Shown one piece after another: positions 11,046 through 37,025 of a stretch of 64,000 bases of DNA. Source of the DNA: Liolophura sinensis (lineage: Eukaryota > Mollusca > Polyplacophora > Chitonida > Chitonidae); NCBI RefSeq assembly GCF_032854445.1, contig NC_088302.1, positions 56,772,237 to 56,836,236 of the forward strand, read 5' to 3'. The position numbers and the translations under genes were made by a program. Below the pieces are notes generated by a model. That model ran no database searches. It had not been told where the DNA came from and was given only the letters and a program-made list of their open reading frames with translations. Position 1 is the first letter of the stretch. Every line of letters begins with the position of its first letter.

Positions 11046-11229
11046 ATGTGTGACGCTCCGGACACCACCGTGGTCCACGTCCCTCCTGGATTTACCGGAC
11101 CAAGCGAATCGGGAAACAAACCGACCTTCTGGGGACCAAGGAAGAGATTGTGCAGCCGAACTGGCTTTAACTTGTGCATAGCCCCAACAGGAAAGGTGTA
11201 TGGCACTTACAAAGAGTCGGACAAAAATG
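11046..11229 (+). CDS. Fibroblast growth factor, coding exon 1
   Basis: FGFs are heparan-sulfate-binding ligands that activate FGF receptor tyrosine kinases. This exon encodes residues 1-61 plus the first base of codon 62. Residues 1-33 are a proline/glycine-rich leader without a hydrophobic signal peptide. From residue 34 the beta-trefoil starts: KRLCSRTGFNLCIAPTGKVY, comparable to the LYC(R/S)xGxxLxIxPxGxVxGTR start of FGF1/2 and FGF9-type proteins. The exon ends AAT-G|GTAAGT, a perfect donor in phase 1. The ATG at 11046 is the first in frame after a stop at 11013-11015 and has A at -3. A further 5' exon joining between 11016 and 11046 is possible. With exons 2 and 3 the protein is 161 residues, close to the 155 of human FGF1/FGF2. 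Lack of a signal peptide plus the NUDT6 neighbour favour an FGF1/2-type assignment. Confidence 0.95.
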
Positions 11230-12440
11230 GTAAGTGGGACATATCTAAGAATAGTGAGGATCTTGCACTGGTTCCTTTCTTTACAATTTCTTCATTTTTT
11301 TGCTATGTATGTTAAGTCAGAGAGCTGACGTCAAGCATTTTACTTTCCGCGCTGCTTGCATCCCTTGCTTTTCCTTCAATGCGTCAGCGGTGTTTTCATT
11401 TTTGGAGATCAATATGGGCGGTAAAGGCACATTCGTAGACAGAGACTTTGCGAATTTACGAGTTTGACCTTGTTGCCAAAATGTATCTAGGTCGCAGTAT
11501 GAGATCTGTTTAGAAGTATTCATTTTATACGCCGCCCAACTGAGGTAATTTTATGTACATTCCTCATAAATTACTGTAATTTGCATTGAGACATTCTGCT
11601 AAATTTTGCACCGTGGAGTTGGCTCAAAACGTAACTTTGACTATCCTCTCAACAGCGCAACCGAAAGAGATTCCCAGACCACTTGGTACAGCTTCAAATG
11701 GTAGTGTAAGTTTGGGCCCTAGAGCCACATACAAGTGGATATACTCTCGTTGGTGTAACACTGGTTGTTCCAAGACAAGCCTTGAGGCCATAGGTTAGCC
11801 GTGTTTGTAAAAGTAGGCAGCGACATCATGTTTAAAACACCGCGGCATGGTTTTACATATAACCATGTTAGTGTGATGGATCTACGAGCACTCAGTTAAC
11901 GTCTCCCAAACATCCAGACTGTTGGCTGCATTCTCATAAACACGGCTTTCGTGTTGAGTTATGGGGAACTGCCTGTACAACACGTTGAAGAAGCTACTAA
12001 CTAATTATGACCAAAGTCCATTAATTACCACCAAGGTCAGCAACAGCCACACAACCCTTAAAGCAATGACAGTTGGTTCTGGTTCACAACAGTCAGTATG
12101 TCGTCAGTACAGCCAGAAATCACAATGCGGTAGTAAAGCATTCCGTTACCTCATGGGAACCTCATGTTCACGCTGATGTTCTCTGACGGCACACATCCTG
12201 CCGCATTTTATACTACCTGGATTCACCGCACTTATATGAGGCAACAGTCAACGTTGAAAAGACAGGATAAGACGGAATCTGGTGCCTTCTTGAAAAACGT
12301 ACATCACCTTGACATTACCCAAGAATCAGTAAACACTCCACCACCGGGCACCTGCATCAATACTCCGCTCTCCCCACCATCACTGTCCTCTCGCTGTTTC
12401 GGCTCCATACGTTATCGCATGCTGCGGCAGACTATGGTTA
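11230..12440 (+). other. Start of FGF intron 1, unique sequence
   Basis: Intron 1 runs from GTAAGT at 11230 to the acceptor TTTCTCAG ending at 21104 (9,875 nt). This first part carries no recognisable coding sequence, and short ORFs here are chance. Confidence 0.6.
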
Positions 12441-12445
12441 CATGT

Positions 12446-12571
12446 CAAGGCGAGTTCTCGCTCGTCAAGGTGCGTTCTCGCTCGTCAAGGCACGTTCGCG
12501 TTTGTCAAGGTGCGTTCTCGCTCGTCAAGGCGCGTTCTTCCTCGTCAAGACGCGTTCTTCCTCGTCAGAGA
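12446..12571. repeat. 20-bp tandem repeat in FGF intron 1
   Basis: About six units of GCGTTCTCGCTCGTCAAGGC with drift to CTTCCTCGTCAAGA. Confidence 0.88.
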
Positions 12572-12574
12572 ATA

Positions 12575-13455
12575 CTTTGCCATCTCACAATCTTTAGGTA
12601 GCAAATCCGTGTCTATTATGAAATTGGCCCTATGTTGACATGCAGCTAACCTTGAGAGCTTGTCCTGGCTAATCACTACACGATTAACCAATGGGGTGAC
12701 CTGATCCAATCAAGCCCTCACTGAATCAGCCACGGCCTTATGCCAGGCACCTATCGCGGTGCGATCCCTTGTATCCGAATTTCTAAGCTCTGTCCGCGTC
12801 GTCACTGCTGTATTTGGTTATATATACTGGTATTTGATTAGTGTTATAAAGTCCCAAAACTTTTCACGTATACCGTAGAATACTTTATAGGGTGACGAAA
12901 ACAGGAGTAAAATGACTCCGTCATGTTATACATGTAGATCAGCATGGCGTCAACACCCATCTGATATACGACGACATTTGCATAGACACCCTCTGACCTA
13001 CTGATCGCCTGACTCAGGATCTGTATTTGAAACAATTATGTAGAATGTCATGGCGTTGCGTTTGAAAGACTTGATATTGCGATTACGGTACTTGAATGTC
13101 AGTCAGTGATGTTTATGCAGTGTAGTGTCTTGAAGCTGTCAGCGACTATATATAAAGGGATTATTTACACATGTACTTCTGCGAAAACTTGTAATCCTAT
13201 CATACAATAGGCTATCGTAAACAAATGATATAATTTGTCTGGCACTCCTATATGATTTGTGCCTGTGAAACTGTCTCAGTTAGGCTAAACAAGATATTCC
13301 TTGTCAACAGTTCTGTCAACAGGTCCCGCGTTCGCTCATTGATTTAAGTCGACAAGTAACTTCGGATACATCTAGGCATCCGAAACAGGTACAAGTGGGC
13401 ATCCGAGACTGGCTGATAATGAAAGTGTAAATAATCCACACTGGGAGCTAACGTT
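12575..13455. other. FGF intron 1, unique sequence
   Basis: Nothing recognised between the 20-bp and 61-bp arrays. Confidence 0.5.
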
Positions 13456-13459
13456 AGTG

Positions 13460-16400
13460 TGTATGTGCAGTTTGTGGGCTCGCCTGCCATCGGTACAAAA
13501 TGAAAGGTGATGAGTCAGTGTGTATGTGCGGTTTGTGGGCTCGTCTAGTGTCAGTACAAACTGAGAGGTGATGAGTCAGTGCGTATGTGCGGTATGTGGG
13601 CTCGCTTTGCTTCAGTACAAACTGAGAGGTGACAAGTCAGTGTGTATGTGCGGTTTGTGGACGCGCCTAGTGTCAGTACTAACAGAGAGGTGACAAGTCA
13701 GTGCGTACGTGCGGTTTGTGGGCTCGCTTTGCTTCAATACAAACTGAGAGGTGATGAGTCAGTGTGTATGTGCGGTTTGTGGGCTCGCTTTCCTCCAGTG
13801 CAAACTGAGAGGTGATGAGTTAGTAAGTATATGCAGTTTGTGGGCTCGCCTAGCATCAATACAAACTAAGAGGTGGTGAGCATGTTCTGTTTTTGGGCTC
13901 GCCTGGTGTCTGTACAAACTGAGAGGTGATGAGCTAGTGTGTATGTGCGGTTTGTGGGCTCGCCTGGTGTCTGTACAAACTGACAGGTGATGAGTCAGTG
14001 TGCATGTGCGGTTTGTGGGCTCGCATGGTGTCATTACAAACTAAGTGGTGACAAGTCAGTGCATATATGCAGTCTGTGGGCTCGCCTGCCATCGGTACAA
14101 AATGAAAGGTGATGAGTCAGTGTGCATGAGCGGTTTGTGGGCTCGCCTGCCATTAGTACAAACTGAGAGGTGATGAGTCAGTGTGTATGTGCGGTTTGTG
14201 GGCTCGCTTTGCTTCAGTACAAACTGAGAGGCGATGAGTCACTGCCTATGTGCGGTTTGTGGGCTCGCTTTCCTTCAGTACAAACTGAGAGGTGATGAGC
14301 CAGTGTGTATGTGCGGTTTGTGGGCTCGCCTGCCATTAGTACAAACTGAGAGGTGACAAGTCAGTGTGTATGTGCGGTTTGTGGGCTCGCTTTGCTTCAG
14401 TACAAACTGAGAAGCGATGAGTCACTGCCTATGTGCGGTTTGTGGGCTCGCTTTGCTTCAGTACAAACTGAGAGGTGATGAGCCAGTGTGTATGTGCGGT
14501 TTGTGGGCTCGCCTGGTGTCTGTACAAACAGAGAGGTGATGAGCCAGTGTGTATGTGCGGTTTGTGGGCTCGCCTGCCATTAGTACAAACTGAGAGGTGA
14601 TGAGCCAGTGTGTGTGTGCGGTTTGTGGACTCGCCTGCCATTAGTACAAACTGAGAGGTGACAAGTCAGTGTGTATGTGCGGTTTGTGGGCTCGCTTTGC
14701 TTCAGTACAAACTGAGAGGTTATGAGTTAGTGAGTATGTGCGGTTTGTGGGCTCGCCTAGTGTCAGTACAAACTGAAAGGTGGTGAGCATGTTCTGTTTT
14801 TGGGCTCGCCTGCTGTCTGTACAAACTGAGAGGTGATGAGCCAGTGTGTATGTGCAGTTTGTGGGCTCGCCTGCCATTAGTACAAACGGAGAGGTTATGA
14901 GCCAGCGTGTATGTGCAGTTTGTGGGCTCGCCTGCCATTAGTACAAACGGAGAGGTTATGAGCCAGCGTGTATGTGCAGTTTGTGGGCTCGCCTGCCATT
15001 AGTACAAACTGAGAGGTGATGAGCCAGTGTGTGTGTGCGGTTTGTGGGCTCGCCTGCCATTAGTACAAACTGAGAGGTGATGAGCCAGCGTGTATGTGCA
15101 GTTTGTGGGCTCACCTGGTGTCTGTACAAACTGAGAGGTGATGAGACAGTGTGTGTGTGCGGTTTGTGGGCTCGCCTGCCATTAGTACAAACTGAGAGGT
15201 GATGAGCCAGTGTGTATGTGCAGTTTGTGGGCTCACCTGCCATTAGTACAAACTGAGAGGTGATGAGCCAGCGTGTATGTGCAGTTTGTGGGCTCGCCTG
15301 CCATTAGTACAAACTGAGAGGTGATGAGCCAGTGTGTATGTGCGGTTTGTGGACTCGCCTGCCATTAGTACAAACTGAGAGGTGACAAGTCAGTGTGTAT
15401 GTGCGGTTTGTGGGCTCGCTTTGCTTCAGTACAAACTGAGAAGCGATGAGTCACTGCCAATGTGCGGTTTGTGGGCTCGCTTTGCTTCAGTACAAACTGA
15501 GAGGTGATGAGCCAGTGTGTATGTGCAGTTTGTGGGCTCACCTGGTGTCTGTACAAACTGAGAGGTGATGAGCCAGTGTGTGCGTGCGGTTTGTGGGCTC
15601 GCCTGCCATTAGTACAAACTGAGAGGTGATGAGCCAGTGTGTATGTGCGGTTTGTGGACTCGCCTGCCATTAGTACAAACTGAGAGGTGACAAGTCAGTG
15701 TGTATGTGCGGTTTGTGGGCTCGCTTTGCTTCAGTACAAACTGAGAAGCGATGAGTCACTGCCTATGTGCGGTTTGTGGGCTCGCTTTGCTTCAGTACAA
15801 ACTGAGAGGTGATGAGCCAGTGTGTATGTGCGGTTTGTGGGCTCGCCTGGTGTCTTTACAAACTGAGAGGTGATGAGCCAGTGTGTATGTGCGGTTTGTG
15901 GGCTCGCCTGCCATTAGTACAAACTGAGAGGTGATGAGCCAGTGTGTGTGTGCGGTTTGTGGGCTCGCCTGCCATTAGTACAAACTGAGAGGTGACAAGT
16001 CAGTGTGTATGTGTGGGTTGTGGGCTCGCTTTGCTTCAGTACAAACTGAGAGGTTATGAGTTAGTGAGTATGTGCAGTTTGTGGGCTCGCCTAGTGTCAG
16101 TACAAACTAAGAGGTGGTGAGCATGTTCTGTTTTTGGGCTCGCCTGGTGTCTGTACAAACAGAGAGGTGATGAGCCAGCGTGTATGTGCAGTTTGTGGGC
16201 TCACCTGCCATTAGTACAAACTGAGAGGTGATGAGCCAGCGTGTATGTGCAGTTTGTGGGCTCGCCTGCCATTAGTACAAACTGAGAGGTGATGAGCCAG
16301 CGTGTATGTGCAGTTTGTGGGCTCGCCTGCCATTAGTACAAACTGAGAGGTGATGAGCCAGCGTGTATGTGCAGTTTGTGGGCTCACCTGGTGTCTGTAC

Positions 16401-16768
16401 AAACTGAGAGGTGATGAGCCAGTTTGTGTGTGCGGTTTGTGGGCTCCCCTGCCATTAGTACAAACTGAGAGGTGATGAGCCAGCGTGTATGTGCAGTTTG
16501 TGGGCTCACCTGCCATTAGTACAAACTGAGAGGTGATGAGCCAGCGTGTATGTGCAGTTTGTGGGCTCACCTGCCATTAGTACAAACTGAGAGGTGATGA
16601 GCCAGCGTGTATGTACAGTTTGTGGGCTCATCTGCCATTAGTACAAACTGAGAGGTGATGAGCCAGCGTGTATGTGCAGTTTGTGGGCTCGCCTGCCATT
16701 AGTACAAACTGTGAGGTGATGAGCCAGCGTGTGTGTGCGGTTTGTGGGCTCGCCTAGCATCAGTAAAA
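13460..16768. repeat. 61-bp minisatellite, about 54 copies, in FGF intron 1
   Basis: The unit is roughly GTGATGAGCCAGTGTGTATG, then TGCGGTTTGTGGGCTCGCCT, then GCCATTAGTACAAACTGAGAG. Variants differ at the second half (GCCATTAGTACAAAC, TTGCTTCAGTACAAAC, GGTGTCTGTACAAAC). Blocks of several units are duplicated: the string GAGAAGCGATGAGTCACTGC recurs at about 14408, 15438 and 15744, the last two 306 bp apart (five units). Open frames on the - strand come from the repeat. Confidence 0.96.
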
Positions 16769-16769
16769 C

Positions 16770-17311
16770 ATATGTAAACCGCAGTAAGACGATGGATTTA
16801 ATATGGTCACATGGCCATGTGACGTAGATGACGACGCGGGCTCGCGCGGATTTGGCCATGACCTCAGCTACAAGCTAAGGCTTCGCTGTTGGCTTTACTT
16901 GTAGCATCGCTGCTCCACTGTATAAATCTAGAAGAAATCAAAATACCAAAAATGTTCATGAAGCTATATTTTGGCATAGCAAGAGAGGTGTGCTAAATAT
17001 CTATTTGGAATGAAATTATTAGGTGACAAGATCTAATAATTCATGGTGGAAAACCAAGCTTGTGTGAAGCCTTGACACGTTTTATGGCTTCCTGTACTAG
17101 TGCATTCATACACAAAATCAGTCTCCTAATAGATTGTAGATAGTTATTAACTATAATTATTTATCTTCATTGAACTGTTTTGGTTAATTTAAGGCATAAA
17201 TTCAACCATATAAATGCGAGATTTACATTTGTTTACTATACTGAATCATATATTACTATGATTAATTAGTTATTATTTTAAACAGTTATGATTCGTAGTA
17301 ATCTAGCGTGT
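16770..17311. other. FGF intron 1, unique AT-rich spacer
   Basis: Nothing recognised between the 61-bp array and the SINE. Confidence 0.5.
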
Positions 17312-17320
17312 ATCACAATG

Positions 17321-17575
17321 GCGGTCTCCGTGGCTCAATTGGTTAGCGCGTGAGCATAATGTGTTGACCCAGGAATCTCTCACCAATGCAGTCGGTGTGA
17401 GTTCAAGTCCAGCTCATGCTGGCGTCCTCTCCGGCCGTACGTGAGAAGGTCTTCCAGCAACCTGCGGCGGGTCGTGGGTTTCCTCAGGACTCTACCCGGT
17501 TTCCTGGCCGCCGCCGTATAAGTGAAATATTCTCGAGTACGGCATAAAAACCCAATGAAATAAATAAATAAATGC
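17321..17575 (+). mobile_element. Full-length tRNA-derived SINE with 9-bp target-site duplication
   Basis: The head GCGGTCTCCGTGGCTCAATT contains an RNA polymerase III A-box (TGGCTCAATTGG), and GAGTTCAAGTCC fits a B-box about 60 nt later. The body continues with AGCAACCTGCGGCGGGTCGT and GCCGCCGTATAAGTGAAATA and ends in AAATAAATAAAT. The duplication ATCACAATG at 17312-17320 and 17576-17584 shows retroposition. It lies in FGF intron 1, in sense orientation. Confidence 0.93.
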
Positions 17576-17584
17576 ATCACAATG

Positions 17585-17784: not shown

Positions 17785-20700
17785 CTGTGACGAGTCGGTT
17801 TCACGCAGGTTACACTGCAAACTAAATCGTGAGTCGCCCTGCAAATTCCAGGCCAAATTAAGTCAGCAGTCGCCATACAAATTACACGCCAAATTAAATC
17901 AAGAGTCGCCATGTAAGTTACACGCAAAATTAAGTCGGCAATCGCCATGCAAATTACACGCCAAATTGCGTCAGGAGTGTTCATGTAACTTACACGCAAA
18001 ATTTCGTCAGGAGTCGCCATGTAAGTTACACGTCAAATTAAGTCAAGAATTGCCATGCAAATTCCAGACCAAATTAAGTCAGGAGTTGCCATGAAGGTTA
18101 CACACCAAATTATGTCAGGAGTGGCCATTAAATTAAATCGGGAGCCGCTATGTAAGTTACACGCCAAATTAAATCAGTGGTCGCTATGTAAGTTAAATGC
18201 CAAAATAAGTCAGGAGTCGCCATATAAGTTACAAGCCAAATTTAGTCAAGAATCGCCATGGAAATTCCAGGCCAAATTAAGTCAGGAGTTGCCATATAAA
18301 TTAAACGCAAATTATGTCAGGAGTCGCCATGTAAATTAAAAGCCAAATTAAGTCAGGAGTCGCCATGTAAGTTAAACGCAAATGATGTAAGGAGTTGCCA
18401 AGTAAGTTGCAAGCCAAATTAAGTCAGGAGTTGCCATGGAAATTACACGCCAAATTAAATCAGGAGTGGCCATGGAAATTCAAGACATAATGATTAAGTC
18501 AGGAGTTGCCATGTAAGTTACACACCAAATTAAGTCAGCAGTTACCATGTAAGTTATGTGAGTTATGTAAGGAGTAAGTTACACGCCAAATTAAATCAGC
18601 GGTCACTATGTAAGTTACACGCCAAATTAAGTCAGGAGTTGCCATGTAAGTTACACGCCAAATTAAATCGGAACCCGCCATGTAAGTTACACACCAAATT
18701 AAATCAGCTGTCGCTATGTAAGTCACATGCCAAAATATGTCAGGAGTCCCCATATAAGTTACACGCCAAATTATGCCAGGAATCGCCATGGAAATTCCAG
18801 GCCAAATTAAGTCAGAAGTTGCCATGCAAATTACATGCAAATTATGTCAGGAATCGCCATGTAAGTTACACGTCAAATTAAGTCAGGAATCGCCATGTAA
18901 GTTAAACGCACATGATGTAAGGAGTCGCCAAGTAAGTTACAAGCCAAATTAAGTCGGGAGTCGCCATGGAAATTACACGCAAATTATGTCAGGAGTCGTC
19001 ATGCCAGTAAAACACCAAATTAAGTCCGGAATGGCCATGCAAGTTACACGCCAAATTAAGTCAGTAGTGGCCATGAAAATTCAAGGCCAAATTAAGTCAG
19101 GAGTTGCCATGTAAGTTACACGTCAAATTAAATCAGCGGTCGCTATGTAATTTACACGCCAAATTAAGTCAGGAATCGCCAAGTAAGTTACAAGACAAAT
19201 TAAGTCAGGAATAGCCATGTAAGTTAAACGCACATGATGTAAGGAGTCGCCAAGAAAGTTACAAGCCAAATTAAGTCGGGAGTCGCCATGGAAATTACAC
19301 GCAAATTATGTCAGGAGTCGTCATGCCAGTAAATCATCAAATTAAGTCCGGAATGGCCATGCAAGTTACACACCAAATTAAGTCAGTAGTGGCCATGGAA
19401 ATTCAAGGCCAAATTAAGTCGGGAGTTGCCATGTAAGTTACACGTCAAATTAAATCAGCGGTCGCTATGTAATTTACACGCCGTCATGCCAGTAAAACAT
19501 CAAATTAAGTCCGGAATGGCCATGCAAGTTACACGCCAAATTAAGTCAGGATTTGCCATGAAAATTCAAGGCCAAATTAAGTCAGGAGTAGCCATGTAAG
19601 TTACACGCCAAATTAAACCGAAAGCCGTCATGTAAGTTACAAGCCAAATTAAATCTGGAGCCACCTTGTAAGTTACACACCAAATTAAGTCAGGAGATGC
19701 CTTGTAAGTTACACACCAAATAAAATCATCGGTCGCTATGTAAGTTACACGCCAAATTAAATCAGGAGCAACCATGTAAGTTACACACCAAATTAAACCA
19801 AGAGCCGCCATGTAAGTTACACGTCAATTTATATCAGCGGTAGCTATGTAAGTTGCACGCCAAATTAAATCAGGAGTCGCCATGTAGGTTACACGCCAAA
19901 TTAAATCGGGAGCAACAATGTAAGTTACACACCAAATTAAATCAGCGGCCGCTATGCAAGTTACACGCCAAATTAAGTCAGGATTTGCCATGTAAGTTAC
20001 ACGCCAAATTAAATCCGGAGTCGCCATGGAAGTTACACGCCAAACTAAATCAGGAGCCACCATGTAAGTTACACACCAAATTAAGCAGGCATCACCATGC
20101 AAGTTACACGCCAAATTAAGTCGGGAGTGGTCATGTAAGTTACACGCCAAATTAAGTCAAGAGTTGCCATGTAAGTTACACGCCAAATTAAATGGGAAGC
20201 CGCCATGTAAGCTACACGAAAAAATAAATCAGCGGCCGCTATGCAAGTTAAACGCTAAATTAAGTCAGGAGTTGCCATGCAAATTACTGCACCAAATTAA
20301 ATCGGGAGCCGCTGTGTAAGTTACAGGCCAAATTAAATCAGCGGTCGCCATACTCCAAATTACGTATGGAGTCGCCATCTAAGGCACACGCCAAATTAAG
20401 TGACAAGTCGCCATGTAACCTACACGCCAAATTAAATCAGGAGTCGCCATGTAACTTACACGCCAAATTAAATCAAGAGTTGCCATGCAAATTACACGCC
20501 AAACTAAGTTATTAGGCTACATGTACCATGCAAGCCAACTAAGTCATGTGTTGTGGTGCAGATGACACGACAAATTAAGTGACGAGTCGCCATACGAGCA
20601 CATGTAACTAGCAAAGCAAAATGAGGTCATAAATCGACATTCAGGTTACACGCCAAATTAACCCGAGTCCTCATGCGTCATACACGAAAAATTAATCGTA

Positions 20701-21104: not shown

Positions 21105-21208
21105 CGAACTTGGTCCTGGAAAGTGCGTCTCCTGGAATTGTATCCATCAGAGGAGAGGAGTCCAACCTTTACTTAGGCTTCAACAACAAAGGTCGGCTGG
21201 TAGGGATG
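21105..21208 (+). CDS. Fibroblast growth factor, coding exon 2 (104 nt)
   Basis: This exon encodes the second part of the beta-trefoil, residues 62 (split codon G|CG, Ala) to 96: NLVLESASPGIVSIRGEESN, then LYLGFNNKGRLVGM. The pattern GIVSIRG...S.LYLG.N.KG.L fits the centre of FGF1, FGF2 and FGF9-type proteins. The acceptor is CTTTCTCAG and the donor ATG|GTAAGA. Its 104-nt length with a phase-1 start and phase-0 end is the conserved middle exon of vertebrate FGF genes. The acceptor lies about 210 bp after the end of the 36-bp array, and a 42-bp array begins shortly after the donor. Confidence 0.97.
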
Positions 21209-21254
21209 GTAAGATAATAGTAATGACTTACGGGTGGAAGGCGGTTATGGAAGA

Positions 21255-22025: not shown

Positions 22026-22067
22026 GTTGCTCAAAACTGTATTAAACTTAACCCAGGCTTAAATCTG

Positions 22068-22220
22068 AATTTATTTATTTATTTGATTGGTGTTTTACGC
22101 CGTACTCAAGAATATTTCACTTATACGACGGCGGCCAGCATTATGGTGGAAGGAAACCGGGCAGAGCCCGAGGGAAACCCACGACCATCCGCAGGTTGCT
22201 GGTAGACCTTCCCATTTACG
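22068..22220 (-). mobile_element. SINE fragment, 3' half, in FGF intron 2
   Basis: On the + strand it begins TTATTTATTTATTTGATTGG, continues GTTTTACGCCGTACTCAAGA and GCAGAGCCCGAGGGAAACCC, and stops at about GTAGACCTTCCCATTTAC, so the tRNA head is missing. Same family as 17321-17575, opposite orientation. Confidence 0.88.
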
Positions 22221-23233: not shown

Positions 23234-23431
23234 GCAGCTCTGGGGGAAGAGTGTTTATTTGAAGAGAGAATTCTACCGATTATGTACAGCGTCTACTTGT
23301 CACACAAATACGCCGACAAACACTGGTACATCGCCATCAACAGACGGGGCAAAGCCAGGAACGGGAAAAGGACAAGACTGGAGAAGAAATCGAGCCACTT
23401 CTTGCCTCGGGAAATCACGGACGGCGTGTGA
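23234..23431 (+). CDS. Fibroblast growth factor, terminal coding exon
   Basis: This exon encodes residues 97-161 and the stop TGA at 23429-23431. It starts AALGEECLFEERILPIMYSV; joined to exon 2, residues 91-114 satisfy the FGF family signature G-x-L-x-G-x(6)-E-C-x-F-x-E-x(6)-Y. It continues with HKYADKHWYIAINRRGKARN, then GKRTRLEKKSSHFLPREI. WY-A-N--G is the conserved strand, and the dense Arg/Lys cluster corresponds to the heparin-binding loop of FGF1/2. HFLPRE matches the usual H/LFLP ending, after which only a few residues follow, as in FGF1 and FGF2. The frame and all three exon joins are intact, so the gene appears functional. Confidence 0.97.
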   Translation, partial: AALGEECLFEERILPIMYSVYLSHKYADKHWYIAINRRGKARNGKRTRLEKKSSHFLPREITDGV

Positions 23432-24864
23432 GACTTGTGTTACGCCATCAACTTTCAAGTTAAAGGAGACCAATCATCCAGACTATTCAAACGGACTACG
23501 ACCGCCAGATTTGACTGTCGGACTCTTAGTTTTCGCTATATATATCGTGCGTGTTATTTCATTGGTTTAGTTCAGACAGAAGGCTTCACATGGGTAGCAC
23601 CGGTTTTAACCGGTGGTCGAGGCACACTTTATACATTCTACTATACACGGTGTCATATTTTGTAATCATTGCTCCGCCGTTATGTAATAAGGTGATCGCT
23701 TTGCCTGCCTGTTTTACTATAACTGTTACTCTGACACGCATCATGAACTGTCAGATTTGACATGTGGTCTTGGTGTGCGACGCGCTGCTCACATATGTTA
23801 AAGTGACACTGGTAAGACACGCTGCACCTGTAAGCCAACTAGATACAAACACACCATCTGCAAGTCTACACCACTACCACGTTCTGTGGTAAGCTCTAGG
23901 TCAAGGTCAGGTCAAAGGTTAGCCGTAACTAGGAAGGTTTTTTAGTGAATGAAAAGGGCAAACACTTGATCTGACTTCCTACCAAACTTCTGGCTGTTAT
24001 GTCTAATACAGATGACGACCTCGAATCAAACACTCCCGTCAGTTTTGCTCGGTTCCTGTGTACGCCACGGTAACCTTAACAATATAGCATTGCACATTAC
24101 ATGTGTGTGGCAACGAATTTTTTATTTAAAAGACTTCTAATAATAATTTGCTTTAATTATTTTAGATAGTCAAATTTTCACTCGTCTTTCACATCAACAA
24201 AAAAGCATTTGTTATTACCCGTAGTGCCCCAAGGGATATGTTAGTATTGTCTATAGTTGATCTTGAACTTAAACTGCATCTTCAACGACTTCCCTACATA
24301 GGTCAATGCGGTTATAAGCCTCTGTACGATGAAGTCCACTTACATACGTCAGCTTGCATACAGTGTCTTAAGTTACTGTTGGGGTTAACACATGCGCATT
24401 AAATCATCGATTTACACCTGTAGTCTTAAGGGATACACAGTAAGGAACTACAAAGGAAGTTTATGATGTTAAAGGTAATCGAAGATAGTTATGCTAAAGA
24501 TAATGAAAACAAATAATCCTTTTTGTCCATATTTTGTATCTCTTAGGAACGCCTCAATTTTATGCATATGTTCCATCAATCGTCGGAAACCTTCGAAAAT
24601 AAGAGTTCTATAGACGGCTATCGCAGTTCATGTCACAATTGCAGGTTACTTTATATCCACATTAACCGATGGGGCCGTAGGAATACTGTAGTTTAAAGTC
24701 ATCTTTAAGCCCCAAGAAGAAAGCTGGGGATATCCTCTGCATATACGTGCTCCTATATACATGTATGTTCGACATCGCGAAAATTGTACTATGCCGGCAC
24801 TCTACCTGAGGATGCAGAACCTGGAAGCAACGACAATTATCACTAAATGTGCACTGAATACAGA

Positions 24865-24870
24865 AATAAA
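24865..24870 (+). promoter_or_regulatory. First canonical AATAAA downstream of FGF
   Basis: AATAAA lies 1.43 kb after the stop codon. An ATTAAA occurs earlier at 24398-24403. Either could end the FGF transcript. Confidence 0.25.
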
Positions 24871-25544
24871 TCCGCATGTTCTCTATACGGTGTCATTTAC
24901 ACACCGTATCTAAGCTTAGGAAGTTATTAAAATTCTGCAATACTGCATTGTGCAAGTCATCTGTTTACAGCAAAGCAAACCACCTCCTGATTACTCTGGT
25001 GAAACAGGCTAGGGTACAGATCTGTAGTTACAAAGTGTGCATAGGAGGCCGTGTATAATTGTTAAGGTACGTGTAAACCAACTACATGTGTCTAGAAAAG
25101 ATGCTGACCAAACTGTCCAGGCTGCTATGCAGGCCAACGAACTGTATATACCTCTCTCTGCATATATAAACACATGTACAATGTACTTTTTAAGATCCAT
25201 TTATACTAGATCATACATCATACAATCAATGGATTCAGTTGAAACCAATCACGATTGAAACTGTAAAATATTTCCGACCAGGCGAACAATAGAATATGTA
25301 ACAGAGTTATGCTAACTTACGCATACAATTCTCATGGCGTCAAATACAGTTATTTTCACTATAATTTGTTTCTATCGTATATATTTTTACCACACAGGAA
25401 CAATTTACACCGGGCCTTTCCAGTGATCAGGGAACACAATGCAATGTTTCTGTAGCTAAACAGCTTCCCGGCGGACATCCGCGTGTTTGATCTTAAAGCA
25501 CTAAGTCATTTGGTTATCATTTCGTTGGTATTTTTCTACGTAAA

Positions 25545-25740
25545 GAATATTTCACTATTATCCTGGGGGTCAGGTTTGTGAGCGGAGGAAACCGGACGGA
25601 GCCCAAAGGAAACCAGACGGAGCCAAGAGGAAACAATGCACAACTTCTCGTCAGGTACCAGACAACTCCTTGACATAAGGCCACAACCGACATAACGAGG
25701 GCTGGATTCAAACCCTCGTTCGAATGGACCACGAGTCCGT
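25545..25740 (-). mobile_element. Diverged SINE-like fragment
   Basis: AATATTTCACTATTATCCTG, GAGGAAACCGGACGGAGCCC and, further on, TGGATTCAAACCCTCGTTCG resemble the body and a B-box-bearing head of the local SINE family, but with a duplicated central motif and much divergence. There is no target-site duplication. Confidence 0.4.
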
Positions 25741-26261
25741 TAGTGGTTTGACAGGACCTTGTGGATTCCAGTAGTCGGGTGATCAGCAATATATCTGGAA
25801 GGCCAAGTCTGCAAAATGGTTGAACAAGAGCACTGCACACAGTAAATAGGTCTACACTGGTCTTGAAGTGCCAATGAGACGACCGAAATTTCTTCATCAG
25901 TATAAACTGTTAATAGTCTGTTAAACATGATATACCGGATATACCGGATTTGTACAAAATATTTATGAAATGAAAAAAAAAAATCCGAAATGCCGTCATG
26001 ATTATGACTCCTTTTACATACACCTACAGGTTCGCACCTCAGTAACGATCATGACATAACTTCTTAACATTAAACGAAAAAAAAACTCTCGCATCAGTTA
26101 TCCTGTAAATGTATGCAAAAGTTTTTAAGATGCAAGGGTCCAAAGACAGACAAGCCAACAACAGCCCTACCTGTCACGGGTATCCATACTGAGAACCTGT
26201 AATTAGATATGTGATCGGTTGGCCAATGAGAAGGGGAATCCCCTTAAATCACTGGTTTCGA

Positions 26262-26612
26262 AGTGCGTAACACCGGATTGTCAACAGGCCACCAACCCGT
26301 TCCTCAACAGGCTTTGTTACACCAGATGGTCAGTAGGCCACCAAACCGTTCCTCAACAGGCCTTGCTACACCAGTTTGTCAACAGGACACCAAACCGTTC
26401 CTCAACAGGCTTTGTTACACCAGATTGTCCACAGGCACCAAACCGTTCCTCAACAGGCCTTATTACACCAGATTGTCAACAGACCACCAAACCGTTCCTC
26501 AACGCGCCTTACTACACCAGATTGTCAACAGGCCACCAAACCGTTCCTCAACAGGCTTTGTTCCTCCAGATTGTCAACAGGCCACCAAACCGTTCTTCAA
26601 TAGGCTTTGTTA
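26262..26612. repeat. 49-bp tandem repeat, about 7 copies
   Basis: The unit is CAACAGGCCACCAAACCGTT CCTCAACAGGCTTTGTTACA plus CCAGATTGT. The three overlapping + frames across it are repeat artefacts. Confidence 0.95.
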
Positions 26613-26784
26613 AATTCTGATAGTGAATATTACTGAGGATTTTCACGGAAGTCAAAACGAATGTTCTTACTCTACCTATATGAAACTGTCCAGTCCAAGA
26701 AAAGCATAAAACAAACATGGGTTCCCACTTCGATAACAGAAAGATTGGTTTTAAAGCTAATGGCAACACTGGTTCCCCAAGAAA

Positions 26785-26972
26785 TATGCAAAAGAAGAGT
26801 TACAAGCAATGCGCAATAGACGAGCTTACAAGAAATATGCAACAGACGAGCTTTCCGGAAATGTGCAATAGACGGGCTTACAAGAAGTATGCAATAGGCG
26901 AGCTTACAAGACATATGCAATAGACAAGCTTACAAGAAATGTGCAATAGACGAGCTTACAAGACATGTGCAA
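26785..26972. repeat. 26-bp tandem repeat, about 7 copies
   Basis: The unit is ACAAGAAATATGCAATAGAC GAGCTT, with variants in the middle. Confidence 0.9.
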
Positions 26973-27173
26973 TATAGAATGATATACCATGGTAAAATCT
27001 CCATTGACTGAGTGAAACACAACGAGCAGGGGCTGAAGGCACGGCCTCCCAGATAGAAACCAGGTCAAACATATCACTCTATCTGCTTTATCGCTGCTGT
27101 AACGTAAGTTATTATTCTTTTGTCAGAGTTTTTCCATTCATATAGCAGATAACGGTTTCAACAGAAGTTATTC

Positions 27174-27689
27174 ATGAGGGTTCTACTTGGTCGGGCTGTA
27201 TCAGTCAACGGTGGCCACACTGTTTTCATTACCGACTTCACCAATACAGTCTATGATGCAATGGTATGCAGTTCCACAAGGATTTCAGCGCTCTGCAATA
27301 TACCTCTTACTGGCGATGCTTTGACATTCCACGCCGACGTGATAAAACAAACTGTTTGGTACACGAATATCGTTAACAAACATGAGTGTAACTCTTCTTT
27401 CAACCCGACAAGAGCATGTACTCAATTGTTGAAAGATTGTCAGTCGTTCTTTAGTTCGTCTTTCAGTACCTGTCTGGCGCTCTGGAAAAGCCTGGCTGAG
27501 GAAGAGCGAGCGAGATTGGTGTTCAAAAATGTATTCCAACTGAAACTGTGCAAAATGTACAACATCACGGTGCTAACAGCACACGGTGTAACTCTGATGA
27601 TTGCCATACATTACCCACATTATGTTACCTATATCCAGATTGAGCCATCTGATCACTTATATCTTACAAGAGATGCATCTCCACCCTGA
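27174..27689 (+). CDS. Uncharacterised 171-codon ORF, doubtful
   Basis: This is the longest non-repetitive open frame between the two recognised genes. It begins MRVLLGRAVSVNGGHTVFIT. I recognise no domain, signal peptide or repeat. It runs without introns between low-complexity AT-rich flanks and a SINE fragment starts 20 bp after its stop. It may be chance or an intronless relic. Confidence 0.12.
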   Translation: MRVLLGRAVSVNGGHTVFITDFTNTVYDAMVCSSTRISALCNIPLTGDALTFHADVIKQTVWYTNIVNKHECNSSFNPTRACTQLLKDCQSFFSSSFSTCLALWKSLAEEERARLVFKNVFQLKLCKMYNITVLTAHGVTLMIAIHYPHYVTYIQIEPSDHLYLTRDASPP

Positions 27690-27711
27690 AATTACTTCAT
27701 CAATGACACTA

Positions 27712-27796
27712 GACCACCCACCATAATGCTCGCCGCCGTCGTATAAGTGAAATATTCTTGAGTACGGCGTAAAACACCAATCAAATAAATAAATAA
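27712..27796 (+). mobile_element. 5'-truncated SINE with 13-bp target-site duplication
   Basis: Only the 3' end of the family is present: CCACCATAATGCTCGCCGCC, GTATAAGTGAAATATTCTTG, GTAAAACACCAATCAAATAA. The exact duplication ATCAATGACACTA at 27699-27711 and 27797-27809 shows that it inserted already truncated and fairly recently. Confidence 0.9.
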
Positions 27797-27809
27797 ATCA
27801 ATGACACTA

Positions 27810-30200
27810 AACAGGTGTGGCTTCGCGATACCAGGTAAACCAAAAGTAGAACTGTCCAAAACGTGTATCAAGCCAGGAGCAAAATATACAATTTATTGAG
27901 ACCCTGATGTGTCACGGTTTGATTTTTGATCCGAGCTGTTGGGGTACGGTTGGGTAGTAAGATTCCCAATTCGCTTGGCGTGTTAAAGTCCTTTAAGCTC
28001 GAACGGTTCATGACTTGACTATGTGTCATCAATTTTTCACATCATTCTTGAATTATTTTTCGTTGACTAAGATTTGTAGCATTGTGGCTGAGTGATGAAT
28101 TTCTAGGCGTAAAGAAAAGCGTGAAGATTACCCCTCGGGCTGGGCTCACTTCAGTATCTCCAAACATAGCGCTTAGTAGTTGTTAGTCTTCACGGTTTTA
28201 TTTTAATGAATTGTAAACGTCTCTATCTTTGTTTGCTTTTCTCATTCCCGCTTACCTTAACTAGCTGGGGTAAATTAGTGTACAAGGCGCTTTATACCTG
28301 GCGCCAATCTCAGCTCAGGATGTTTATCATAAATTGTGGACATCGTTTGTGCTGTGCATTAGATCTCATTTAGGCGACAAAAGTCTACAGGTATTGCCCT
28401 GACTCGATGATTAAAACAGCAACGGCTCCGACAAATCAGAAAGCGGAAAGCTGTTAATGGCTAACTCCAGAATACAATTGGCGACAAGCATTCCTTTCAT
28501 ACCACAAGTAACAACAGCAATCCAACTTTCCCGCCCCTAAGGAGCTAAGCGAACTGCTAAATTAAACCCTTGGGTTCACAGAGAGAGGCCCAGACTCTAC
28601 ACCCACCCGCCCGTCAGGAGGGATTTACAGTCTCTTGTGTATACAACCCTGACATAACACACATACTGTCCACATCTGAATGACTAGTACAAAGCACAAC
28701 CCACACAGACCCATTAGGTTATGCATATTACCTTCACACTGTATAAAACATAAAGCCCTTTAGTCACAATGGCAATGCCACTCTCAGCCTTGTACTTGTT
28801 AAGTACCTCGGCTGAATTGACGTCTGGCGAATGCATTCAAGATAGATTGTGGTTTAATACGAATGGACCCAATCACGACATTGCCGTGATGTAACACGTA
28901 TAGCTTTACAAATCCCTTCAACATCGACAGCTTTGCCACCCCGAGATTGCCTTCATTGTAGCGCCTCCCACATCTCTCAACAACACTCAAGACAGGCATT
29001 GTCACAGTCTTAGTTTGGATACTAACCAGACAAAAGGTCAACCAACTATCGGCGTGAAATCCACCTGGCGGCGCCCAGATTCCATAAAACATAATGGACC
29101 GTCTTTTGCCCATACGTTTCGTTGACGTTCGTTTGTGGCTAGTGTTGTACAAACACACACGGTTCAATAGGTCCTCCGTAATTAGCGATTATAAACACAA
29201 ACACTAACACTCCCACAACAGTCGCATTTTTATTATCAGATTACTACACATTTTGTTCTACTTGTAATGCATATACACTACATCCACGTTATATTTATTT
29301 ATTTCCTTGATTGGTGTTTTACGCCGTACTCAAGAATATTTTACTTATACCACGTCCGCATTATAAGATATATTAATGAATATATACATGTTGTGGCGAT
29401 TTCTTCACACATGTCCATAAACCGACGGCCATGACTTTTAGAGTATTTTTGCAACCATCTAGATAACAATAAATACGCATCTCATTTTCGGATGGTATTT
29501 AGTACTACTTATTAAATATGTAACTTGTGCAATGTTCCATATCCTCCAGCACGGACTGACAGATCGGTGTCTACGACATACTAATGGATCAAAAAATCAA
29601 ATAGAACTGAGGACATTTTAGGACCTGCTGCCCAATATATGAGAAAATTTGTTGCCTTCCTTTCAATAACAGCGATCGGCATTAAGTCTGTATTACTCTC
29701 GTGTACAGGCACTTTGCACTTCTGTTAGACAAAATAGTTCGGTGACTCCCACTTTGTATTTATTCAATTTTATAATGCAAGAACCGTTTAATTCAATATT
29801 TTTTTGTTCTCACGATGAAAATTATCACTTCATAAACTATTAAAATAATCTGAATGTTTCAATTTATTTGTAAAGAGCTACCTTCATATTCCAAGGTAAC
29901 AACTTTATTAACGTGTACAGCAGTATTAGACCTTTTCGTGAGTGTTTCATGCAGTTCACCCTACAAATACTGATTTTACCTCGTGAATCCTTGCAGTCTT
30001 GTCAATATAGATGCAGATGCACATGTTTTCTGGGTTCATTAAATATAGTCACAATATTCTGTGTACTTATAGCAAATATAATATAGAGTTAATGCTAAAC
30101 TGATGTCGCAGTTCCTCGTCAACGATTGATTCGTTTATCGTAATGTATATTATTGTGTGATGAAAGTCAGGGGTGAAGAAACATGATTTCAGATTATACC
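27810..30200. other. Intergenic sequence between FGF and NUDT6
   Basis: Apart from a short SINE tail at 29293-29370, no gene is recognised. A 122-codon - frame (28799-29167) has no supportable identity. Confidence 0.45.
29293..29370 (-). mobile_element. SINE 3'-end fragment
   Basis: TTTATTTATTTCCTTGATTG followed by GTGTTTTACGCCGTACTCAA on the + strand is the reverse complement of the family tail. Truncated after about 75 bp. Confidence 0.8.
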
Positions 30201-30204
30201 TTAT

Positions 30205-30372
30205 AGTAACCGCCTGCCCTGAGGAGTAACCGCCTACCTTAGAAGTAACCGCCTACCTTAGGAGTAACCACCTATTCAGAGAAGTAACCACATATCCTAC
30301 ATGAGGCTGAAACCGCCTACCCTGAGGAGTTTTCCGCCTATCCTAAATGATGAAGTAACCGCCTACCCTGAG
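30205..30372. repeat. About 20-bp tandem repeat
   Basis: About seven units around GAGTAACCGCCTACCCTGAG with irregular spacers. It lies just downstream of the NUDT6 stop codon. Confidence 0.8.
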
Positions 30373-30438
30373 GCAAAAACAGGTGCTAAACCAAAATGCA
30401 ATCCAATTACTAGTATATGAAAAGGTTGAAAACACTAG

Positions 30439-30444
30439 TTTATT
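30439..30444 (-). promoter_or_regulatory. NUDT6 polyadenylation signal AATAAA
   Basis: On the - strand AATAAA lies 20 nt beyond the NUDT6 stop codon (TGA, 30466-30464). A very short 3' UTR is implied if it is used. Confidence 0.5.
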
Positions 30445-30463
30445 CATGTTGACAATTAATATG

Positions 30464-30798
30464 TCACAAGTGGCACCATTCATCCGGCAGAGGTCGGTGG
30501 AATAAGTAATATGTCAAGCCTTTATGTATAGATTTCATTTTCTCCTGAGTTATGTCTACATTATCAAAGCCTTGTTCACAGCCATACATGATGATCTTGG
30601 CGAGCCGTTTGGTTATGGGTGTAGAAGTGGACTCAAGTAAGGTTTCGGCTGACATCCACTGACATTTGAGGATTTCTGTTTGACAGGGATGGATTTCAAA
30701 GGTCTTTGGCCTCATACGACAAACAACGTATATATCTGACCGTCCAAAAGCACCGGGCTGCTGGTGTTGCTGTCGAAAAGCTAGGACCGACTGGAAAT
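30464..30798 (-). CDS. NUDT6: NUDT6-type Nudix hydrolase, terminal exon
   Basis: This exon encodes the C-terminal 110 residues of a Nudix hydrolase of the NUDT6 (FGF2-antisense, GFG) family. Reading down from 30798: FQSVLAFRQQHQQPGAFGRS, DIYVVCRMRPKTFEIHPCQT, EILKCQWM, then TPITKRLAKIIMYGCEQGFD, and finally GLTYYLFHRPLPDEWCHL. The strings RQQH--PGAFG+SD-Y--CR, C-W(M), TPIT-R-A, GFD--D+T and GL-Y-L-H+-LP are diagnostic of vertebrate NUDT6. The acceptor is a long T-run ending TTTCAG at 30799; the exon begins in phase 1 (G|AT, Asp) and fits the 36978 exon. The frame runs past the Met at 30715 to the acceptor, so that Met is internal. The protein class cleaves nucleoside-diphosphate-linked compounds; the substrate of NUDT6 itself is not well defined. 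Confidence 0.96.
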
Positions 30799-30834
30799 CT
30801 GAAAAAAAAACATTGTCAGATTATACTCAGTTAT

Positions 30835-31091
30835 ACTGAGGAAAAGTCATCACTGGTCATGTCGTTACTGAGGAAAAGTCATTACTGGTCATGTCGTTAC
30901 TGAGGAAAAGTCATCACTGGTCATGTCGTTATCGAGGAAAAGTCATCACTGGGCATGTCGTTACTGAGGAAAAGTCAACACTGGTCATGACGTTACCGAG
31001 GAAAAGTCATCACTGGTCATGTCGTTACCGAAGAAAAGTCAACACTGGTCATGACGTTACCGAGGAAAAGTCATCACTGGTCATGTCGTTT
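30835..31091. repeat. 32-bp tandem repeat, 8 copies, next to the NUDT6 acceptor
   Basis: The unit on + is GAGGAAAAGTCATCACTGGT CATGTCGTTACT. Eight units start 37 bp upstream of the terminal NUDT6 exon (on the - strand). Units 1-3 and 5 keep CTGAGG; the others have TCGAGG, CCGAGG or CCGAAG. Confidence 0.95.
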
Positions 31092-31282
31092 CTCCTACAC
31101 AATGGAAATATATTAATGTTATCTTATTAATCAGAAGGTTTCTCTCCACAGCAAATTTGGTCAACGACATTACCCCAAAACAGAGAACATATGCCAAAGC
31201 GTACAACATATACTCATTTCTTAATGTTTGTTAGAAACAACACGACAAAAACACTCAGTATATAATTACTTTTTTCACAAGC

Positions 31283-31310
31283 TTTCGGAAGTAACTGCTT
31301 CCATCATCAG
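31283..31310 (-). ncRNA. Hammerhead-ribozyme-like core, probably a retroelement relic
   Basis: On the - strand: CTGATGA, then TGGAAG, loop CAGTTA, CTTCC, then GAAA. CTGATGA and GAAA are the two conserved hammerhead core strands, and GGAAG/CTTCC forms a perfect 5-bp stem II with a 6-nt loop. I cannot find a closed stem III or a cleavage site nearby, so activity is unlikely. Penelope-like retroelements are known to carry such motifs, so this may be the end of an old copy. Confidence 0.4.
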
Positions 31311-31319
31311 GTAAGTGGC

Positions 31320-34300: not shown

Positions 34301-34465
34301 CGATCAGTTTTCTAAAAGTTTTACACGGGACAACGCATGCAATATATTAATGCTGAGAAGGACCCGAAAGATGTGTTTCTCTGCATGTGTAAACTGGCGT
34401 GATTAGGAAGATTCAACATTTTAATGTTGTCTTAAAAGGTCTGCGTGTGTTTAAATGCTACACTT
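31320..34465. other. NUDT6 intron, unique sequence
   Basis: No gene recognised. At about 34085-34200 GGTCCCGGGTTCGAATACAC resembles a tRNA B-box/SINE remnant on the + strand. Confidence 0.4.
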
Positions 34466-34467
34466 TT

Positions 34468-34600
34468 TCTGGAAAAGCCGCGAAAACATATCCACTCTGG
34501 AAAGCCGCGAAAGATATCCACTCTGGAAAGCCGCGAAAACATATCCACTGGAAAGCCGCGAAAACATATTCACTCTGGAAATCGCGAAAACATATCCACT
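34468..34600. repeat. About 27-bp tandem repeat, 5 copies
   Basis: The unit is CTGGAAAGCCGCGAAAACAT ATCCACT, with one 22-bp unit. Short frames across it are artefacts. Confidence 0.9.
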
Positions 34601-34604
34601 AATT

Positions 34605-35525
34605 TTTCGTTTTATACCATGGTATGCTGAATGCCGTGCCAAATAATGCTGAGCATCTGGGCGATCGTCCATTTCAGTTTTCCGGGGCAGTACCGGGTGT
34701 TGCAATATTCCCGCTATTCCACAAATCTAAACACGTCTGACTCATATCTAATTAAATTACAGTTCCACTTGTGGGGTTAAATTCTCCCGTCAGTGTATCA
34801 TGTCCTAAGCGCAAGAAACTTGAGGTGTTGCATTCACTGAGACGATTCTGCTACGGCAATCAGGGGCGTGATAAATGACTCGATGTCAACAAGCAATTTG
34901 CAGATATTCCTGAAGTAAAATCAGTACAGTAAACGGATAAATAAAGACACAAGTCTGGCAAAGGGAGTCCTTTTTAGTTTCGTCAGCGTGGAGATTTTGG
35001 CGGGGAGCCCACCTGGCTTGACAGATCGCCCACGGGCAGGCGACACCCCATGGTGGTAAGGGACTCATTGCCGGAATGTGATACCCCTAGTGCCCATTTA
35101 TCAGTGAGTGTAGCGACAAATACTAACCCATCATAACGCTAATCTCCGGCAAACTCTGCCATCAAAAGGCTATTCAAATTGTCGGCTCACTGATAGCTTG
35201 GAAAAGGAAACCTGATTTGTTCTCGGACAACACAGAGAGTTTATTGCAAGTAGAACTTAGACTACACGTTTCGAGATAGGTCGTGCTCAGTCGATGGGTT
35301 ATCATGTAAGATGGTCCTTAACTCACTCCCCTTGATTATTTGACTTCTGTGCAGATCGACTCTTACAAAGAGTCAGCTAATAACGTGGTCTGACCCTTTT
35401 GGAGACTGGGTGGTCGAATATAATAACGGTACCCAAATGTAGCCATCATTGTATGTTATCCGACATTTACTGGAGACAGCACCATCTTAAGTAGCGACCA
35501 CTATATAACTTTTTTATCCTTTCAT
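34605..35525. other. NUDT6 intron, unique sequence
   Basis: No gene. At 35264-35295 (+) ACACGTTTCGAGATAGGTCG is a degenerate relative of the hammerhead-like motif at 31283. Confidence 0.4.
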
Positions 35526-35527
35526 AC

Positions 35528-35528
35528 A

Positions 35529-35612
<84 letters not shown>
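35528..35612. repeat. (TA)n microsatellite
   Basis: A pure TA run of about 84 bp inside the last NUDT6 intron. Confidence 0.97.
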
Positions 35613-35614
<2 letters not shown>

Positions 35615-35616
<2 letters not shown>

Positions 35617-36975
35617 GTGTGTGGGTGTGGGCGTGGCACGAAACTTAACAAACTGGAGAAAACAAGCAAACTAAGACGAGCGCCGTTCTTTCTCCAAAAA
35701 CAAAGGCCAATCAGAGACGACTTTTGTATAAAAGGGTTTAATTTAGGTTTTAATCCTATACATTTATTCTGTTATCAAGCAATCTTCAGCGGGACACCTA
35801 GTGTAGTAAATCTGATCTAGCTTAGCAATCTCCATGGTCAATCCCTAAAACACGGGCAACACTTCGCTTTCCCTCTGAATGCAATTTTGCGTTGAGGTGT
35901 AGCGATTCTGACTTAAGTTTCACTTACATCGTTACAGTTATCTGGTATCACACGTAGACGTCTGTACCCTGTAACTTCATTCCACAAAGTTAGTGGAAGA
36001 TGGGACTGGAAAGTGTTGATTAATACATACTAAAAAGTCACTGAATCCTTCCCCGCACGCAATGAAGTGGTTGGTACAGAGACGAGACCGGGCGTTGTAC
36101 CACAGGCCGATGACAGTGGCTGTCAATCGGTCTGCCTGTCCGTCTGGCCAGAAACAGGGCACTGAATTATCAGTCATTGCACAGATCTATCAGTATGTCA
36201 GTGTTCTTGAGGATACGCACAGCAGGGCTATTATAAGACGCGGGATAGGATGTGATTACAGACCTCTTTATCAACTTGGACCCGCTTTGGTAGTTGACGA
36301 TTTGGTCGCTTTTGGTGGACCGCAGAGCGGTGGTCCTCTCCAGTTAATGTCATGCAGTCTGACATACAGCTTCCTCAGCCAGTGAGGTCGAGTGTCGTAA
36401 AGTTTTAAGGTGGTATAACATCTCAGGCTACTGATTTACGGCAGATCTCACGTGTTTGGGTTGCTAAGCCACCCGCGTGCGAACGGAAACTGACAGCAAC
36501 CAAATAACCCTAGAGCGTTTAACGCTTATAAAAGTGTTCGACTTCGTTAAATTTGAGCGATTTAACTGTGATGTTATCGCCTAGGATGACGGACTCGTCG
36601 ACCATATCCCGCTCATAAACGCTTCGTTGAGACGCCTCAATATGGCATTTCTGCACCTTAAGCGGCTCATTCAGCGCCCCTTTAGCACGATGTACACGTG
36701 TGCTTTGTCACTCATACTATCCACGTAACGGTTTAACAGCGAGAGTGCGCCCAGAACTCCTGAACACCACCCCTACGCTCACCCCAAAAACATTTTAATT
36801 TTTTTAAACTGAGCTGTAAAGATGCTTCAAGTAACACAGAATTTCCAAATTACTATATATTTTATTTCAAGGTCTGCTATATTTCAACACAGTATGGTTT
36901 TCATTATTAAGTCTATCAGTTATAAATTAAAGGTGATGAGATGACAGGGACTGTGTACAAACGAAGAGAAAACTC
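35615..36975. other. NUDT6 intron, unique sequence
   Basis: Short frames on both strands at 35977-36385 have no recognisable homology and no matching splice phases to NUDT6. Confidence 0.4.
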
Positions 36976-36977
36976 AC

Positions 36978-37025
36978 CAGATTCAATTCCCGTCTCTTCT
37001 AGAACTTCTCTTTTCGCAGTTTCCG
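36978..37025 (-). CDS. NUDT6: NUDT6 Nudix-box exon (48 nt)
   Basis: This micro-exon encodes (A)ETAKREVLEETGIES(G/D). It supplies the second half of the Nudix box (T-A-x-R-E-V-x-E-E-x-G), whose glutamates bind the catalytic metal; vertebrate NUDT6 has the closely similar DTAVREVFEETGIKS. The acceptor is TTGTTATTGCAG (ending 37026) and the donor TCTG|GTGAGT (36977 downward). Phase 1 on both sides gives an uninterrupted TGIES-D-FQSVLAFRQQH join with the terminal exon. The first half of the box (GG...E) must be in an upstream exon, which I did not find at 37026-64000. Confidence 0.93.

Follow-up and report, generated by a model that had tools for sequence, protein, structure and literature searches.

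The closest described system to the locus considered here is the vertebrate FGF2-NUDT6 pair, in which NUDT6 is also known as GFG or FGF antisense. In vertebrates, the NUDT6 mRNA and the FGF2 3' untranslated region (UTR) share a complementary stretch of more than 400 nt, and lowering the FGF2 or the NUDT6 RNA by knockdown raises the other (PMC3899992). Nudt6 and Fgf2 are reported to be syntenic across all vertebrates, within a conserved block that comprises Spry1, Spata5, Nudt6, Fgf2 and Bbs12 (PMC6070626). The literature searched, which leaves most subscription journals outside its coverage, yielded no report that the two genes are linked in animals other than vertebrates. The present analysis concerns a stretch of 64,000 nucleotides (the window) on scaffold_4 of the chiton Liolophura sinensis (Polyplacophora, Mollusca; contig NC_088302.1, positions 56,772,237 to 56,836,236), for which an original prediction, made from the sequence alone, had proposed a probable mollusc as the source and an FGF gene and a NUDT6 gene lying tail to tail. 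The source is indeed a mollusc, and the two genes are indeed convergent. Their features are as follows.

11046..11229, + strand: FGF coding exon 1, 184 nt, ending in phase 1, located by tblastn to human FGF1/FGF2.
21105..21208, + strand: FGF coding exon 2, 104 nt, AG/GT, phase 1 to 0, the top-ranked splice-consistent candidate.
23234..23431, + strand: FGF coding exon 3 with stop codon, 198 nt, tblastn expectation value (E) 2.2e-11 to FGF1.
23432..30463, no strand: interval between FGF and NUDT6, 7,032 nt between stops.
30439..30444, - strand: AATAAA poly(A) signal of NUDT6, with 19 nt between signal and stop.
30464..30798, - strand: last coding exon of NUDT6, 335 nt, with the stop at 30464.
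36978..37025, - strand: Nudix-box exon of NUDT6, 48 nt, phase 1-1, xETAKREVLEETGIES.

The identities of both genes (in the case of NUDT6, of its C-terminal half) are established, as are their order, orientation and spacing and the ordinary divergence of the NUDT6 exon. The FGF gene begins with an ATG at 11046, 33 nt after an in-frame stop at 11013, and all four of its splice sites are GT/AG. Its first intron spans 9,875 nt. The middle exon, 21105-21208, is an addition to the original prediction, which did not mention it; it is covered by the top 4 of the 419 splice-consistent candidates that lie between exons 1 and 3, with mean scores of 56-68, compared with 15.5 for the first unrelated candidate. 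The stop codon ends at 23431, where the gene had been predicted to end, and the joined coding sequence yields a protein of 161 aa that is identical at 161/161 positions to the annotated 'fibroblast growth factor 9-like [Liolophura sinensis]' (P0011), a database entry that describes the same protein and says nothing on neighbours. This protein matches the Pfam FGF family (PF00167) at E 5.4e-34, with residues 33-153 covering profile positions 3-124 of 124, so that the beta-trefoil core is complete. In the FGF protein search, the FGF itself was the one candidate of 15 to match at E 0.001, and no other did.

Three coding exons with a middle exon of 104 nt are found in FGF1 and other FGFs, and the chiton exon lengths of 184, 104 and 198 nt fit this pattern. 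The N-terminus is short and has no hydrophobic leader: the best mean hydropathy over nine residues is 0.88, against 0.77 for FGF1, whereas the leader of FGF10 reaches 3.3. Leaderless FGFs other than FGF1/2 exist, and a leaderless N-terminus is thus unspecific.

On the opposite strand, a NUDT6 gene ending at 30464 had been proposed on the basis of its Nudix-box and terminal exons; the stop and both exons stand, although only the C-terminal 126-127 residues of the protein are seen. The exons have AG/GT/AG flanks and a frame that is open up to the stop. The sequence REVLEETGI in the Nudix-box exon fits REUXEEXGU, the latter half of the Nudix box, and this exon gives a profile match at E 0.004 among the 3,199 open reading frames (ORFs) of the window. 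When the joined 126 residues are compared with PDB chains, human NUDT6 (3h95) is matched at E 2.8e-42, followed by Nudix hydrolase 7 at 1.3e-10. Assignment of the - strand exons to another Nudix family was rejected, 3h95 being far ahead of all other solved Nudix structures, and, in keeping with the original assignment, no family fits better than NUDT6 among solved structures and named database matches. Matches at E 0.001 were obtained for 10 of 14 database proteins in one search and 12 of 112 in another; all those with informative names are NUDT6, and the rest are unnamed, 'hypothetical' or generic Nudix proteins.

In tblastn against the window, the last exon is 46% identical to a typed human NUDT6 sequence over 110 aa (E 1.8e-32), and it is 65% identical to Haliotis NUDT6 over 110 aa. 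In the exon alignment set, identities are 64% for abalone, 61% for Sinanodonta and 45% for human, and the counterpart in one relative (P0001) is 92% identical. In a weakly supported tree, human-to-tip distances run from 1.75 to 2.06 among six named molluscs and come to 1.75 for the chiton exon; since it lies within the range of these molluscs the exon does not look decayed. On these sequence comparisons, membership of the C-terminal half in NUDT6 may be regarded as firm. As a separate observation, the NUDT6 C-terminal exon is by eye nearly identical in two annotated Sinanodonta woodiana genes, ACJMK2_030871 and ACJMK2_030889 (P0002, P0013), whose contigs are equal in length; this represents either partial duplication or an artefact of annotation or assembly.

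The coding ends of the two genes had been placed 7.0 kb apart, in agreement with the 7,032 nt observed. The interval contains no credible Pfam domain among ORFs of at least 45 aa outside tandem repeats, and the best weak matches besides FGF and NUDIX in the scans that cover it have E values of 0.0087 and 0.014. The poly(A) signal of NUDT6 begins at 30444, the 20th nucleotide past the stop, as predicted. There are nine further - strand AATAAA motifs downstream, from 29909 to 24126, and longer NUDT6 3' ends are possible. On the + strand, AATAAA occurs at 24865, 27784, 27788, 27792 and 29468; an ATTAAA from 24398 and the AATAAA from 24865 lie 1.0 and 1.4 kb past the FGF stop. Overlap of a NUDT6 transcript ending at its first signal would therefore require an FGF 3' UTR of 7 kb. 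The caution about overlap in the original prediction is supported both by the short NUDT6 3' end and by the poly(A)-like motifs that follow soon after the FGF stop, and these sequence signals argue against transcript overlap as the default state of the chiton pair.

It may well be that the adjacency of FGF and NUDT6 in the chiton was inherited from the bilaterian ancestor and is the same linkage as that of vertebrate FGF2 and NUDT6, and the evidence leans in this direction. With NUDT6 as the convergent 3' neighbour of an FGF gene, random gene order, 28,010 genes (the L. sinensis total; PMC11068029) and an assumed 1 to 8 FGF genes, the probability of the arrangement, calculated post hoc, ranges from 1.8e-5 for one FGF gene to 1.4e-4 for eight. 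Ancestral linkage is favoured because the random-order probability is about 1.8e-5 per FGF gene, and because the relative orientation is that of the vertebrate sense-antisense pair. Descent of the chiton gene from the FGF1/2 side is in line with its short, leaderless, FGF1-like N-terminus. Where the original prediction had moved from two convergent families to a pair linked in the bilaterian ancestor, the identities, orientation and distance hold, while the ancestry is likely only, being drawn from one invertebrate genome.

Several observations weigh against inheritance from that ancestor. The support comes from that single genome, the chiton's, chiton chromosomes are heavily rearranged (PMC12005716), and none of the other vertebrate neighbours Spata5, Spry1 and Bbs12 was recognised by Pfam scans in the gene-poor window. 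The identity of the FGF to FGF9, at 41%, exceeds that to FGF2, at 36%, and to FGF1, at 35%, its database name is FGF9-like, and the best tree groups it with FGF8/18, with support values of 79.6 in the Shimodaira-Hasegawa-like approximate likelihood ratio test (SH-aLRT) and 85 in the ultrafast bootstrap (UFBoot). The N-terminal half of NUDT6, with its WKFPGG exon, did not turn up in the window, either in the 26,975 bases upstream of 37025 or in the remainder, and two protein searches (covering about 70-224 aa and 172-546 aa), in which few proteins are named, returned no named L. sinensis NUDT6.

Below FGF9, identities of the chiton FGF are 40% for FGF16 and FGF20 and 39% for FGF5. Among PDB chains, the best natural match is FGF9 (1g82, 96 bits), followed by FGF1 (1rml, 84.2 bits) and FGF2 (1bla, 81.7 bits); a designed consensus FGF scores 97.6 bits. 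The maximum likelihood tree contains 20 sequences, the chiton FGF and 19 human paralogs, of which 11 were typed and are unchecked. The FGF8/18 placement has a p value of 0.908 in the approximately unbiased (AU) test. The identity to FGF8 and FGF18 is 31-33%, and because of this, long-branch attraction is a possible source of the grouping. Placement with FGF1/2 lies 1.5 below the best tree in log-likelihood (deltaL; AU p 0.375) and placement with FGF9/16/20 lies 7.9 below it (AU p 0.195); of nine constrained placements, FGF3 is the sole one rejected at 0.05. When the FGF1/2, FGF9/16/20 and FGF8/18 placements alone are compared in three additional settings (17, 15 and 15 sequences), none of these placements is rejected (AU p 0.32, 0.23 and 0.37 for FGF1/2; 0.13, 0.18 and 0.18 for FGF9/16/20). 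Overall, the nearest relative is FGF9 by similarity and, with moderate support, FGF8/18 by tree, and neither FGF1/2 nor FGF9/16/20 is rejected.

This is in keeping with earlier work, in which lophotrochozoan FGFs could not be clearly placed (PMC3420111). In lophophorates, FGF9/16/20 and FGF8/17/18 genes have been named (PMC8180254), and an FGF of the limpet Lottia groups with the lophophorate FGF9/16/20 genes in a study that expected synteny to help with an annelid FGF (PMC8224027). Protostome FGF orthology is hard to settle because the domain is short, and a conserved neighbour provides evidence on it that is independent of the tree. The proposal that the locus offers a synteny anchor for protostome FGF orthology is a reasonable one, although it is inconclusive so far, as similarity, tree and AU tests point differently. 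With tree and similarity in disagreement, the linkage carries more weight as evidence and speaks for FGF1/2; the anchor is inconclusive also because an ancestral FGF tandem cluster beside NUDT6 would look alike.

Such a cluster is the substance of the first alternative, that the linkage is ancestral and the chiton gene belongs to FGF9/16/20 or another class. The ancestor would then have had an FGF1/2 gene and a second FGF near NUDT6, of which one survived at the NUDT6 spot in the chiton and the other in vertebrates; a tandem pair of this kind would explain the linkage and the similarity together. The 96-bit match to FGF9 and the 41% identity agree with this, as do the published trees with Lottia and lophophorate FGF9/16/20 genes (PMC8224027, PMC8180254), and in one of the three further settings (the Whelan and Goldman, or WAG, model) FGF9/16/20 is slightly likelier than FGF1/2. 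In the other two it is less likely, its AU p value in the main tree is the lower of the two, and the N-terminus of the chiton FGF is short and leaderless. The extra ancestral tandem pair that would be needed is also without sequence evidence, and this alternative appears unlikely, though it deserves serious consideration.

A second alternative is that the adjacency is an accident of rearrangement within the chiton lineage, with no bearing on the ancestor. The rearranged state of chiton chromosomes (PMC12005716), the post hoc choice of the pair and the lack of a shared third neighbour in the window all speak in its favour, yet the random-order probabilities given above, at 1.4e-4 even for eight FGF genes, make it rather improbable.

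The last alternative concerns the missing half of NUDT6. The N-terminal domain PF18290 and the WKFPGG motif are annotated or present in the longer relatives, with WKFPGG invariant in 10/10 of them (P0012-P0021) and the surrounding region strongly conserved. N-terminal exons were sought on the - strand by motif scan, tblastn and a splice-aware scan, and on both strands by profiles against the 3,199 ORFs and tblastn with the 10 relatives. These searches returned scattered weak matches only (best E 0.76 for tblastn and 0.34 for profiles), while a C-terminal profile, used as a control, recovered both known NUDT6 exons. An ORF at about 46754-46641 on the - strand was a recurrent weak match (E 1.2 to 2.4) and was rejected, as it has no WKFPGG. 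That the - strand exons are a 5'-truncated NUDT6 duplicate, with the complete gene elsewhere, would agree with the missing exons, with the lack of a named L. sinensis NUDT6 (most proteins in the database being nameless) and with a 1.9-kb tandem array 329 bp upstream of the Nudix exon, but it is very improbable given the open frame, canonical splice sites, poly(A) signal, normal exon divergence, the same exon at 92% identity in P0001 and the local presence of large introns such as FGF intron 1. An intron of more than 27 kb, in a gene missed or merged by the annotation, is favoured over a truncated copy because the splice sites are intact, the poly(A) signal is present and the divergence is normal; the N-terminal exons may lie beyond position 64000.

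The L. sinensis genome was first published as that of L. japonica (PMC11068029), and the name was corrected later (PMC12441733). The window contains no N and is 41% G+C, and tandem arrays make up 18,467 of its 64,000 bases (about 29%). The large arrays are at 642-2329, 13456-16769, 17831-20509, 37354-39280, 53526-55110 and 58043-60209; two of the six lie inside FGF intron 1, the 1.9-kb array near the NUDT6 Nudix exon is another, and some contain long accidental open frames of up to 705 codons from stop to stop. A direct repeat pair, 41431-41884 and 44336-44789, is 99.6% identical over 455 columns with the copies 2.9 kb apart, and perhaps represents the two long terminal repeats of a non-autonomous element that inserted recently, or else a local duplication of recent date. 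A short interspersed repeat, perhaps a short interspersed element (SINE), occurs at 5741-5853, 6415-6516, 17443-17541, 22101-22211, 27717-27766 and 57483-57550, with copies on both strands that are 80-88% identical to the copy at 5741-5853; FGF intron 2 and the FGF-NUDT6 interval contain one copy each.

The Pfam scan took in all 410 listed ORFs of at least 45 aa with less than 40% tandem overlap, among which only the FGF, NUDIX (E 0.0072) and THAP matches were taken as credible. The THAP match, at 56295-56456 on the - strand (E 3e-7, profile positions 18-62), is probably what is left of a transposase or THAP gene; immediately upstream is a stretch that by eye resembles the domain's start and is interrupted by stop codons. 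The weak matches to GPW_gp25 (0.0027), DUF6419 (0.0087), DnaT (0.01) and Oleosin (0.014) were taken as chance, and a tRNA scan found none in the window.

If the linkage is ancestral, the FGF2/NUDT6 neighbourhood is older than the antisense relation, which then came later and made use of a gene order already in place. The linkages in chiton and vertebrates would be homologous, and the chiton FGF, judged by its position, would have descended from the FGF1/2-side gene despite its FGF9-like sequence. The chiton FGF may serve as a ligand that has no classical leader, and its neighbour as a Nudix hydrolase, with no sense-antisense RNA function expected of the pair by default. The neighbourhood would have come first, with 3' overlap and mutual RNA regulation being later vertebrate additions. 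A bolder version, offered tentatively and with more doubt than confidence, is that the pair predates the protostome-deuterostome split and that the mollusc FGF9-like gene, and perhaps other spiralian 'FGF9/16/20' genes, are FGF1/2 orthologs, so that the linkage was in place before NUDT6 became an antisense regulator of FGF2 in vertebrates. If true, the linkage could help to match invertebrate FGFs to their vertebrate counterparts.

Compared with described systems, the FGF9/16/20-class genes of Lottia and lophophorates possibly belong to the same spiralian non-FGF8 class as the chiton FGF, a comparison made by description with genes whose class was assigned by tree only (PMC8224027, PMC8180254). 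The vertebrate FGF2-NUDT6 locus has the same two families, adjacent and convergent as in the chiton, and in both the C-terminal NUDT6 exons face the FGF 3' end (PMC3899992, PMC2254637, PMC6070626). The vertebrate partner is FGF2, whereas the chiton partner is an FGF for which similarity and tree name different subfamilies; and where the vertebrate transcripts share their stretch of complementarity (PMC3899992), the chiton stops are thousands of nucleotides apart, with a poly(A) signal directly behind that of NUDT6.

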